From positions 1-58,578 of the IMG/VR virus record IMGVR_UViG_3300005528_000066: 58,578 nucleotides of DNA; one strand, written 5' to 3'. This DNA is from a virus. A program made the position numbers and the translations under genes. Every line of letters begins with the position of its first letter. Within the stretch, counting starts at the first letter, position 1. Positions 7,891-10,411 of the stretch are shown piece after piece. The notes beneath the pieces are model-generated. The model was not told the origin of the DNA, did not search any database, and was given only the letters and a program-made list of their open reading frames with translations.

Positions 7891-7923
7891 TAAAAAAGAG
7901 CCCCAGGATGGAAATCCTAGGGC
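7891..7923 (-). terminator. Intrinsic terminator behind the HNH gene
   Basis: Stem GCCCCAGGAT (7900-7909) with ATCCTAGGGC (7914-7923), one mismatch, loop of four. On the - strand the stem is followed by CTTTTTTATTT. It closes the HNH/RNR transcript before recA. Confidence 0.75.
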
Positions 7924-7942: not shown

Positions 7943-8503
7943 CTATGCTATCTCGCAAGCACCACCTGCAACTTTTTTACACATCTGTATAAAGTACTGA
8001 TTGTCAAATTTGTTTTTCATAATATTTACATCTTTATGAACCCACTGAATATTATCAAGAATATATCCCTTAGATGAATCTATTCTATCCAGAGAAGCTG
8101 TATAAGATTTATCTTTACTTGCTCTTGGAAAAGTCAATTCTATACCAGATAGTGCACATTTTCTATTTTGTTTAAGAAATAAATTCCAAACATCTTCAAT
8201 AGTTAAATTTAATTCTACAGAAGTTCTTCGTCCTTTATCTCCATTAGCACTTCTAACTATATGATTGTACCAAAAGTCTCCAGATATTTCCCCTACACCT
8301 TTCCATTGATGATGTGTTTTACCAATGGGTTTGTCACATCCACAAGATTTAGTATTGCCTTGTATTAAGTGTGTTCCTAAAACGTTAGTTTCTTTACCAC
8401 AGTCACATAAACATGTATATCTAATATGACCGTTTCTTGATTTAGAATGTACACTTAATACAAGGAGTTTACCAAATTTTTGAGTTCTTAAGTCTTTTTT
8501 CAT
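7943..8503 (-). CDS. HNH homing endonuclease inserted behind the RNR gene
   Basis: 186 residues from ATG 8503; an ATG at 8524 is possible, but the promoter just upstream puts the transcript start between the two. The N-terminus has KFGKLLVLS and a YTCLCDCGKE...SCGC zinc-type segment, as in many phage homing endonucleases. The nuclease part has CALSGIEL then ASLDRIDSSKGYILDNIQWV (about 142-161) with the D-R-I-D-S and N-I-Q-W-V marks of HNH enzymes. After the normal end (MCKKV) the protein continues AGGACEIA, an echo of the RNR C-terminus AGGSCSIE. It has its own promoter and terminator. Confidence 0.85.
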   Translation of the reverse strand: MKKDLRTQKFGKLLVLSVHSKSRNGHIRYTCLCDCGKETNVLGTHLIQGNTKSCGCDKPIGKTHHQWKGVGEISGDFWYNHIVRSANGDKGRRTSVELNLTIEDVWNLFLKQNRKCALSGIELTFPRASKDKSYTASLDRIDSSKGYILDNIQWVHKDVNIMKNKFDNQYFIQMCKKVAGGACEIA

Positions 8504-8521
8504 ATCTCGCAATTTATTCCG

Positions 8522-8553
8522 CAAAGATATGGTAAAATTGTGAAACTACCAAA
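8522..8553 (-). promoter_or_regulatory. Host-type promoter of the HNH endonuclease gene
   Basis: On the - strand: TTTG (8553-8550), 20 bases, TATCTTTG (8529-8522). This is a full match to the Bacteroidota primary sigma consensus TTTG-N19-21-TAnnTTTG. The expected transcript start near 8518 leaves a leader of about 15 bases before ATG 8503. Confidence 0.75.
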
Positions 8554-8560
8554 TTTATTT

Positions 8561-10411
8561 TTATTCAATACTGCAACTTCCGCCTGCACAAGCAGCAACT
8601 TGGCCAAAATCTACTGTATCATCTAGCTCCATCACCTTAGTGAGATCGATAGATTTAAGTGTAGCTATTCTGGATTCATATTGTTCTTTTGTAATGTCCT
8701 CAAAGGGAGCTTGTTGATAAGTTCCTCCCCAATAGGGCAATACAGATAGGCCATTATAATGTTCTCTATTATCCCACATCCAAGTTCCTACATTCTGCCA
8801 TTCATCTTCTTTGATGTTGATTGTAGCACTTACGTTGTGTGTATTATCTCCAGATATATGTCCTGGTTTAACCCATTCTGTAGAAAACTTCTTAACACGC
8901 TCAAGCGTATCAATAGCTGTCTCTGTTCTGAATATAGATCCTTCAGGAGCTTTTACTGGAATACGTACACACACGGTATCTGTTGGACGAAGAACATCAT
9001 CTTCACACAGCTCTGGGTGATTAACCATCAGATAGCTAGCGATGTCTTCATTCTTATTAAACCTCATTGTACGCAGATAATAGTCATTATGCCATGCATG
9101 TATACCTGAAGCTGTTCCTAACACCAGACTAGTAGTACCTGAAGGTTTAATGCAGGTGATACGAGCTGCCTCATTGGTTCCCAGCACATTACTAATCATG
9201 CTGTTCATCACCTTGGCTACATGTGCTGCTACATCCAGATCATATTTAAGAATCTCACCACTTCCTATACCTGTCATACCTATTCCCAACAGGGCATCCT
9301 TTTGTGTGGTTTTCTGCCAAATAGGTCTCAGATAATGGAAATCTGTAAATCCAGCCTGAAGTGTACCAAAGAATGCTGCTGTAGCCACACGCTCATTCAG
9401 GTCTTCTTGACTAACTACATCACTTACATTCACCTCACACAGGTTACAGAATTGATAGGGCCTAAGACCTATTTCACAACATGGATTAGTTCCCCAATCT
9501 TTATTGTTGGTCCAATAGATACCAGGCTCACCAGAACCAGATGCCTCTATACGCTTCCATAGATTAAAGAATTCTTCCTCTCCAACCTTTCCTCTTTCAA
9601 GTACAGCAGAGTTATTAGCCCTACCACGCTGCTCATTAAGCAGATACCATTCACCATACTTACATGTAATCATCTCCTCATCATCATGGCTAAACAGGGC
9701 AATCATGGCAGATCTACGGATACCACCAGCCAATACACTGTTTGCAATGTGACAAAGAATATCATGACACTCTAATGGTGAAAGTTTCTCACCCTCTTGC
9801 TTTCTGTCCAATATAGCCTGTACATGTGTCAAACAAAGCTTAAGAGGTTCAGGACCAGGAGCTTTACCACCTGCTGTAACCAACCTAGCACCCTTGTGTC
9901 TGATAGCTCTAAAGTCAAAATTAGGAGTGAATCCACCCTCTAGATAAGCTTTCATGAGCACCTTTACAGCATCAGCCCAACCCATAATACTGTCCTCTAT
10001 GAGGTAGGTACGTTTCTTACCTGGTTTGGTAATAGCAGGGAGCTGCTCAATGTGGTGTCTTTGAACACTATATCCTACACCTGTACCACCCAAAAGCAAG
10101 AACATAGTCTCAGAGAAACTGTGTATGCTGTCAATAGGCAGAAAACAGCAGTTGTAAATCCTTGAGTTGTTCACCTCAGCAGCTGGACCAGCGAACTGAA
10201 GAGCTCTCATGGATGGTAACACCTTTTTCTGCCTGATGAGCTGTGAACTGCTCAGGATAGCATCCTCAAGTTTAGGATATTTCTTTATCATCATTTTCTC
10301 ATACCTGGTAACAATTTCATCCCAGGTTTCCCTACGATTGAGTTCGGGAATGTACTTAGCATACTTGCTAAATACGGTGATTTTGCTCAACGCATCAAGT
10401 CCTAAATCCAT
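8561..10411 (-). CDS. nrdJ: Class II (adenosylcobalamin-dependent) ribonucleotide reductase, monomeric RTPR type
   Basis: 616 residues, somewhat shorter than the Lactobacillus-type monomeric enzyme. Key sites: YNCC (about 86-89) for the redox Cys, NPCCEIGL (309-316) and FCNLCEVN (321-328) for the thiyl Cys and active-site Glu, and KPSGTTS for phosphate binding. The C-terminal pair C608-AGGS-C613 matches the CxxxxC that re-reduces the active site. The enzyme makes deoxyribonucleotides from ribonucleotides using B12 and does not need oxygen. No second subunit is needed. The 3' end adjoins the homing endonuclease cassette; the terminal AGGSCSIE may be a tail supplied by that cassette. Confidence 0.93.
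   Translation of the reverse strand: MDLGLDALSKITVFSKYAKYIPELNRRETWDEIVTRYEKMMIKKYPKLEDAILSSSQLIRQKKVLPSMRALQFAGPAAEVNNSRIYNCCFLPIDSIHSFSETMFLLLGGTGVGYSVQRHHIEQLPAITKPGKKRTYLIEDSIMGWADAVKVLMKAYLEGGFTPNFDFRAIRHKGARLVTAGGKAPGPEPLKLCLTHVQAILDRKQEGEKLSPLECHDILCHIANSVLAGGIRRSAMIALFSHDDEEMITCKYGEWYLLNEQRGRANNSAVLERGKVGEEEFFNLWKRIEASGSGEPGIYWTNNKDWGTNPCCEIGLRPYQFCNLCEVNVSDVVSQEDLNERVATAAFFGTLQAGFTDFHYLRPIWQKTTQKDALLGIGMTGIGSGEILKYDLDVAAHVAKVMNSMISNVLGTNEAARITCIKPSGTTSLVLGTASGIHAWHNDYYLRTMRFNKNEDIASYLMVNHPELCEDDVLRPTDTVCVRIPVKAPEGSIFRTETAIDTLERVKKFSTEWVKPGHISGDNTHNVSATINIKEDEWQNVGTWMWDNREHYNGLSVLPYWGGTYQQAPFEDITKEQYESRIATLKSIDLTKVMELDDTVDFGQVAACAGGSCSIE

Follow-up and report, generated by a model that had tools for sequence, protein, structure and literature searches.

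The nrdJ locus and its HNH gene

The window, by which we mean the whole stretch of 58 578 nucleotides analysed here (positions 1 to 58,578 of IMG/VR virus record IMGVR_UViG_3300005528_000066), carries nrdJ directly followed by an HNH gene. Reading the sequence, we find that nrdJ ends in VAAC608-AGGSC613-SIE-stop, where C608 and C613 form the C-terminal redox pair. The HNH ORF starts with the ATG at 8506, encodes 186 aa and ends in ...MCKKV-AGGACEIA-stop at 7943. Both genes end in an nrdJ-type tail, that of the HNH gene in frame, as the original prediction had noted. The proposed cassette consists of a replacement tail, a stop codon, a promoter-like site and an HNH gene that lacks its own stop (Table 1); the interval given in the original prediction (7943-8660) was right in substance, with the cassette proper at about 7970-8587.

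Table 1. Features at the 3' end of nrdJ in the window, with the tails and cassette as proposed from sequence comparison
Feature	Position	Strand	Description
nrdJ, whole gene	10411-8561	minus	616 aa; class II ribonucleotide reductase
nrdJ body up to and including Cys608	8588..10411	minus	PHROG 367 ribonucleotide reductase, E=1.2e-125; Pfam Ribonuc_red_lgC; unbroken in relatives
Putative replacement nrdJ tail, borne by the cassette	8561..8587	minus	GCAGGCGGAAGTTGCAGTATTGAATAA = AGGSCSIE-stop; second redox Cys (C613) restored
Promoter-like site, TTTG (8553-8550)-N20-TATCTTTG (8529-8522)	8522..8553	minus	between nrdJ stop and HNH start; sequence reading
HNH gene, own part (MKKDLRTQ...CKKV)	7970..8506	minus	Cys-rich N-terminal part and HNH core; PHROG 374, 3322, 1035 endonuclease
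Putative displaced native nrdJ tail	7943..7969	minus	GCAGGTGGTGCTTGCGAGATAGCATAG = AGGACEIA-stop; closes the HNH gene in frame
Whole inserted cassette (proposed)	7970..8587	minus	about 618 bp, with an uncertainty of 5 nt at the junction; delimited by analogy to the PhiCrAssBcn14 insert of 576 bp, which is base-exact
Intrinsic terminator 3' of the displaced tail	7900..7923	minus	10-bp stem; 1 found versus 0.3 expected

A promoter had been predicted between the two stop codons. We do see a promoter-like site there, and the stretch 5' of the HNH gene reads aaataaatttggtagtttcacaattttaccatatctttg; we take TTTG-N20-TATCTTTG to be a putative promoter of the Bacteroidota type. It is not specific to the element: a scan found AAATAAATTTGGTA after the nrdJ stop to be a common promoter context in viral contigs, and it was thus dropped as a mark of the HNH element.

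When aligning the relatives of the HNH protein, we observed that they usually end near 'CKxVA', followed by several variable residues, whereas the last eight residues of the window protein are extra. Because the family normally ends there, AGGACEIA is an added end, in agreement with the earlier reading of it as an extension past the normal end of the nuclease. In the AlphaFold model of the protein, residues 181-186 are the least confident segment (pLDDT about 33). The PHROG matches of the protein (Table 1) are to 'endonuclease VII' and HNH families, and the invariant family residues ASLDRxxS..GY..N..WV.K..N are all kept (alignment A1). A Pfam search of the protein gave no HNH call above the cut-off and a sequence search of solved structures with the HNH profile gave no match; a fold search returned the HNH enzyme PacI as a weak match (E=0.16). 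The HNH protein of the crAss-like phage PhiCrAssBcn14 (OQ221549, PhiCrAssBcn14_10) is homologous to that of the window (39% identity, E=1e-21). By sequence family, the window gene is an HNH homing endonuclease, which would cut or nick the cassette-free allele and thereby favour its own inheritance.

nrdJ ends in relatives without the HNH gene

If the cassette was inserted into nrdJ, relatives without the HNH gene were predicted to have an uninterrupted tail resembling AGGACEIA. For this comparison, 80 viral nrdJ loci were fetched. Nearly all relatives have an nrdJ ending in C-AGGACEI- or close variants, and one locus (L024) ends in exactly AGGACEIA. At the DNA level, scanning for TGY-GCAGGTGGTGCTTGCGARAT, i.e. 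a Cys codon followed by the displaced bases of the window, detected nine loci, all of which are uninterrupted nrdJ ends. The predicted tail was thus found in both protein and DNA. The uninterrupted relatives nearest to the window are about 75% identical to it, with none near-identical among the loci compared.

HNH-less relatives ending in AGGSCSIE had been named as evidence against the insertion. Two loci without an HNH gene come weakly close to this, with nrdJ ends AGGTCSIE (L040) and AGGQCAIE (L003). These CSIE- and CAIE-like tails look like a natural source of replacement tails and not like a contradiction.

Occupied and empty sites

Two pairs of phages allow a direct comparison of sites with and without the cassette. 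First, L030 carries a cassette and L025 does not, and their nrdJ genes are 94.6% identical. When the flanks of L030 were joined by script (upstream sequence up to the Cys codon, then the displaced tail and downstream sequence), the result was 87.8% identical over 426 nt to the contiguous L025. The 27-nt displaced tail of L030 is identical to the nrdJ tail of L025, whereas the tail attached to L030's own nrdJ differs. Second, removing a 576-bp insert from PhiCrAssBcn14 yields the uninterrupted nrdJ end of PhiCrAssBcn20 at 321 of 321 nt. That end reads GGG TAT AGT AAA TGT TTA TAA (GYSKCL), and the same bases, 21 of 21, close the HNH gene of PhiCrAssBcn14. The nrdJ of PhiCrAssBcn14 itself ends in a recoded version, GGC TAC TCA AGG TGC AAT TAA (GYSRCN). 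In cr126_1, the natural nrdJ end is GGC TAC TCA AAA TGC TTG TAA, so that a donor of a PhiCrAssBcn14-like tail exists nearby.

As alignments, these two pairs confirm insertion into the nrdJ end outright, and they agree with the original prediction that a cassette entered the last nrdJ codons, brought a new tail and left the old one fused to the HNH gene. The HNH gene is present in PhiCrAssBcn14, 15, 16 and 18; further isolates grown on Bacteroides intestinalis DSM 108646 match these phages but lack it. Across about 24 crAss-like isolates of a single Bacteroides strain, some have the HNH gene at nrdJ and others do not (L389, OQ221549, 773-2929; L392-L400).

The recoded end of PhiCrAssBcn14 also bears on a different origin of the paired tails, namely a tandem duplication of the nrdJ 3' end with the HNH gene arriving later between the copies, so that both tails would be diverged paralogues of the same phage. 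This would fit L226, where the two 28-nt tails are identical, and L238 and L285, whose copies are near-identical; recoding is thus not universal, and a tandem duplication is possible at these three loci. In PhiCrAssBcn14, however, the flanks are otherwise identical, yet the tail attached to nrdJ is recoded while the displaced tail is unchanged. Together with the transfers and codon differences described below, this makes duplication a very unlikely general origin.

An alternative for the insertion itself is a group I intron (or an intein) containing the HNH gene, where Cys608 would be spliced to AGGACEIA and AGGSCSIE would be incidental. The HNH family can sit in an apparent splicing setting, as a homologue lies between the halves of thyX in the crAss-like cr111_1. 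Against splicing, the inserts begin with coding sequence and encode a working CxnC tail and a stop, and the displaced tail either continues the reading frame of the endonuclease or has been trimmed. In the window and six relatives, no group I intron was matched by Rfam, whose sensitivity is limited given that the split thyX of cr111_1 also went undetected. For an intein, there is no continuous in-frame reading through the element, as the nrdJ stop at 8561-8563 precedes the HNH gene. We therefore consider splicing highly improbable.

Transfer of the cassette together with its tail

Insertion of a cassette that brings its own tail should be visible in related cassettes. Five loci (L002, L030, L203, L204 and L328) have an nrdJ tail CSLEM or CSLD, followed by a promoter and the HNH gene; this kind of tail occurs on related cassettes irrespective of the native tail of the host phage. 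L203 (RAGGACEINI) and L328 (NTGGACEIQ) have the displaced tail as an in-frame extension of the HNH gene, and in L204 (NGAGGACEIV) it is fused to a second short gene. The displaced tail of L030 (GAGGACEIQ) is attached to no gene; it lies 1.5 kb beyond the HNH gene, and the usual downstream gene comes right after it. The roughly 1.5 kb in between (7559-9064 of L030) contain small ORFs, and the cassette seems to collect cargo.

Comparing L030 to L328, nrdJ is 74.2% identical over 815 nt, and identity is 95.6% in the stretch that begins one codon ahead of the Cys and covers the new tail, the promoter and the 5' part of the HNH gene. Conversely, the cassettes of L203 and L204 are 94.4% identical and the sequence beyond the displaced tail 64.7%. 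These jumps show that the tail travels together with the endonuclease, as a single unit, into phages that have different tails of their own. Judged from nucleotide identity, they show a recent transfer of the cassette plus its tail between phages, and the same new tail brought to different phages by related cassettes (L030 and L328) is at odds with a duplication within each phage.

We also compared the codons of 27 tail pairs. Where the residues agree, 78 of 132 positions have different synonymous codons, compared to 72.6 (sd 5.4) expected if the tails were independent. The differences resemble independent draws, and we thus claim saturation rather than proven selection; selection for recoding was rejected as an explanation, as 78 is not clearly above the expectation. 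Saturated synonymous codons also argue against duplication. In L270 and L249, the shared tail residues are kept although every synonymous codon among them has changed.

Distribution of displaced tails

Searches by HNH family resulted in 185 HNH ORFs in 123 sequence clusters, 64 of which lie directly 3' of nrdJ. A strict tail pattern ([GASN]C[EP][ILV]x0-6-stop) was found in 12 of 62 complete nrdJ-adjacent HNH clusters compared to 1 of 51 clusters beside other genes. Among 4103 unrelated ORFs with a length of 100 aa or more, one matched. The same end on HNH homologues elsewhere had been named beforehand as speaking against the model; among the 51 non-nrdJ clusters the sole case is L271, which by reading also follows an nrdJ.

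In total, at least 15 distinct in-frame fusions of an HNH gene to an nrdJ tail were detected, and in several other cases the tail lies out of frame just downstream. The displaced tail resembles the tail class of the host's own nrdJ: CPIK occurs with CPIR in L270, SSKCG with SSKCG in L325 and L380 (the latter from a Bacteroidetes assembly), and an out-of-frame IDIDKKDLI lies beside the VDIDTKDLI of nrdJ in L321. On the HNH tree, at least 13 changes are required to account for the in-frame state, of which 7 are forced by supported branches. Among the 65 tree rows of nrdJ-adjacent HNH genes, 42 have no recognisable displaced tail, which points to frequent loss of the tail or to another form of insertion. 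The second Cys of the CxnC pair is kept by the nrdJ of nearly all carriers that we read, which fits the biology of class II RNR if NrdJ has to remain active.

The recurrence of in-frame fusions across many lineages could also mean that the CEI-type end has a function in the endonuclease, e.g. as a mimic of the NrdJ tail, and evolved independently of the insertion. Yet the type of tail tracks the neighbouring gene (the nrdJ types, and FGSTG of dUTPase), it is missing from HNH relatives elsewhere, it is predicted to be disordered and it equals the native DNA at empty sites. We regard a functional end as very improbable; the in-frame tail of the HNH gene looks passive.

Several searches concerned other tails. 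No additional displaced tail was found in the named isolates Microcystis phage Mel-JY01 and Vibrio phage VPs20, and no copy of a neighbour's tail was seen in records of huge uncultured phages with HNH homologues. At L243 and about 15 near-copies, the nrdJ-adjacent HNH gene has a conserved FKWGLNxKY end and no displaced nrdJ tail. This end, which many nrdJ-adjacent HNH genes share, might have been the tail of another gene; that reading was rejected, as the fetched loci contain no donor gene.

Proposed mechanism

The window element is very probably a homing-endonuclease cassette at the 3' end of nrdJ, which involves neither intron nor intein but a substitute tail and a displaced native tail. At the level of sequence, our comparisons show that a cassette with a substitute tail was inserted, that the native tail was displaced, and that cassette and tail were recently transferred together between phages. 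The cassette sits just 3' of the codon for the first of the two C-terminal redox cysteines. On its left it supplies a short substitute coding tail with a stop, by which NrdJ stays functional, and a promoter or ribosome-binding region and then the HNH gene follow. As the window HNH gene has no stop of its own, it reads into the displaced native tail and thereby gains AGGACEIA and a stop. The HNH protein may recognise the uninterrupted nrdJ end across the Cys-GGN junction and nick or cut there, whereupon repair templated by the carrier phage would copy the cassette in. The carrier itself would be protected, as its recognition site is split and its tail sequence differs.

Comparison to known systems

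The closest known parallel are the mORFs of fungal mitochondria, reported for Allomyces macrogynus atp6, Rhizopus oryzae atp9, Mortierella verticillata cox2 and Glomus sp. atp6, atp9, cox2 and nad3 (PMC3630166). In these, an endonuclease gene lies in the 3' part of a conserved gene, a foreign C-terminal part is supplied and the native one is displaced downstream, or sometimes wholly replaced; the inserted and native copies of Glomus atp6 share 63.5% of their DNA and 91% of their amino acids (PMC3630166). The elements described here share the endonuclease ORF in the 3' part of a conserved gene (window 7943-8587 and both empty-site pairs), the in-phase, diverged and foreign tail (AGGSCSIE versus AGGACEIA; GYSRCN versus GYSKCL in PhiCrAssBcn14) and a native C-terminal part that has ended up 3' of the endonuclease ORF. 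However, mORFs are mitochondrial, encode LAGLIDADG or GIY-YIG enzymes and have tails of about 50 to 280 bp, whereas here we find phages, HNH enzymes and tails of about 7 to 13 codons. Unlike mORFs, the phage cassettes often have an endonuclease finished in frame by the displaced tail and a promoter-like site of their own. Given the HNH family and the phage genomes, the phage element works like an mORF but is not a member by descent.

In phages, homing endonuclease genes are known to adjoin essential genes (PMC10448857), such as the mob and seg genes of T4 with mobE between nrdA and nrdB (PMC2988022). The likeness lies in a phage HNH gene beside a nucleotide-metabolism gene without intron or intein. 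Those free-standing genes lie between genes or split a gene, whereas the available parts of both sources describe no replacement of the 3' coding end of the target (PMC2988022, PMC10448857). The mobE insertion in nrdA of phage Aeh1 is similar in that an HNH gene lies inside an RNR gene without an intron and function is kept (PMC2988022, PMC3653736). Aeh1 nrdA is, however, split into two polypeptides, whereas NrdJ remains one because the cassette brings the missing end. Going by its matches to PHROG 1035 and HNH families, the window HNH protein may have a catalytic motif similar to the Endo VII motif of F-CphI-type homing endonucleases (PMC6083498).

In the open-access literature searched we found no report of tail replacement by a phage endonuclease. 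The logic of such cassettes is already known from fungal mitochondria (PMC3630166). Besides self-splicing introns and inteins, a new gene ending would be a third way for phage homing endonuclease genes to occupy essential coding sequence harmlessly, which extends a strategy of fungal mitochondria to bacterial viruses. It would explain the odd RNR-like ends on endonucleases as well as abrupt changes at the NrdJ C-terminus of phages, including the spacing and residues around the redox cysteine. Furthermore, homing, target recognition and self-protection can be tested directly, as near-identical cultivated crAss-like phages that plate on one Bacteroides strain differ in whether they carry the cassette.

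Other target genes

HNH genes of the window's family also end in a dUTPase tail in L009 (FGSTG) and L290. In crAss001, PhiCrAssBcn20 and relatives, a NUMOD4-type HNH gene lies 3' of dut, which ends in GIGSSGF. PhiCrAssBcn22 lacks this gene, and its dut ends in GIGSTGK with abruptly different codons. The native dut end appears to have been lost and not displaced in crAss001-type phages, where an A-run blurs the boundary.

With the HNH family of the window and the NUMOD4-HNH genes at dut of crAss-like phages, we lean towards the view that phage homing endonucleases quite generally live by replacing tails, such that several nuclease families would supply substitute recoded ends at several gene ends (nrdJ clades, dut, perhaps others). 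If so, the termini of essential genes can be targeted with no need for an intron or intein, and phage enzymes undergo fast C-terminal change as a result.

Four additional observations concern other genes and gene ends. In crAss001-type phages, the NUMOD4-HNH gene after dut goes along with a replaced dut tail (L395, 2356-3383; L399, 2356-2823). In L281 (3997-4648), the 3' half and the FGSTGLN end of an HNH gene that follows nrdJ resemble the dut-associated HNH gene of L009; its next gene is the one located past dut in the window, which looks like an HNH-HNH recombination that deleted recA and dut. The homologous HNH gene between the two thyX halves of cr111_1 (L390, 1671-3568) is possibly within an intron missed by Rfam. 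Lastly, the HNH end VIFEIKEILNNVGI in L301 (3895-4555) resembles ILTQFKKILEENGI, the end of an unrelated upstream gene of 306 aa, which is a possible further target.
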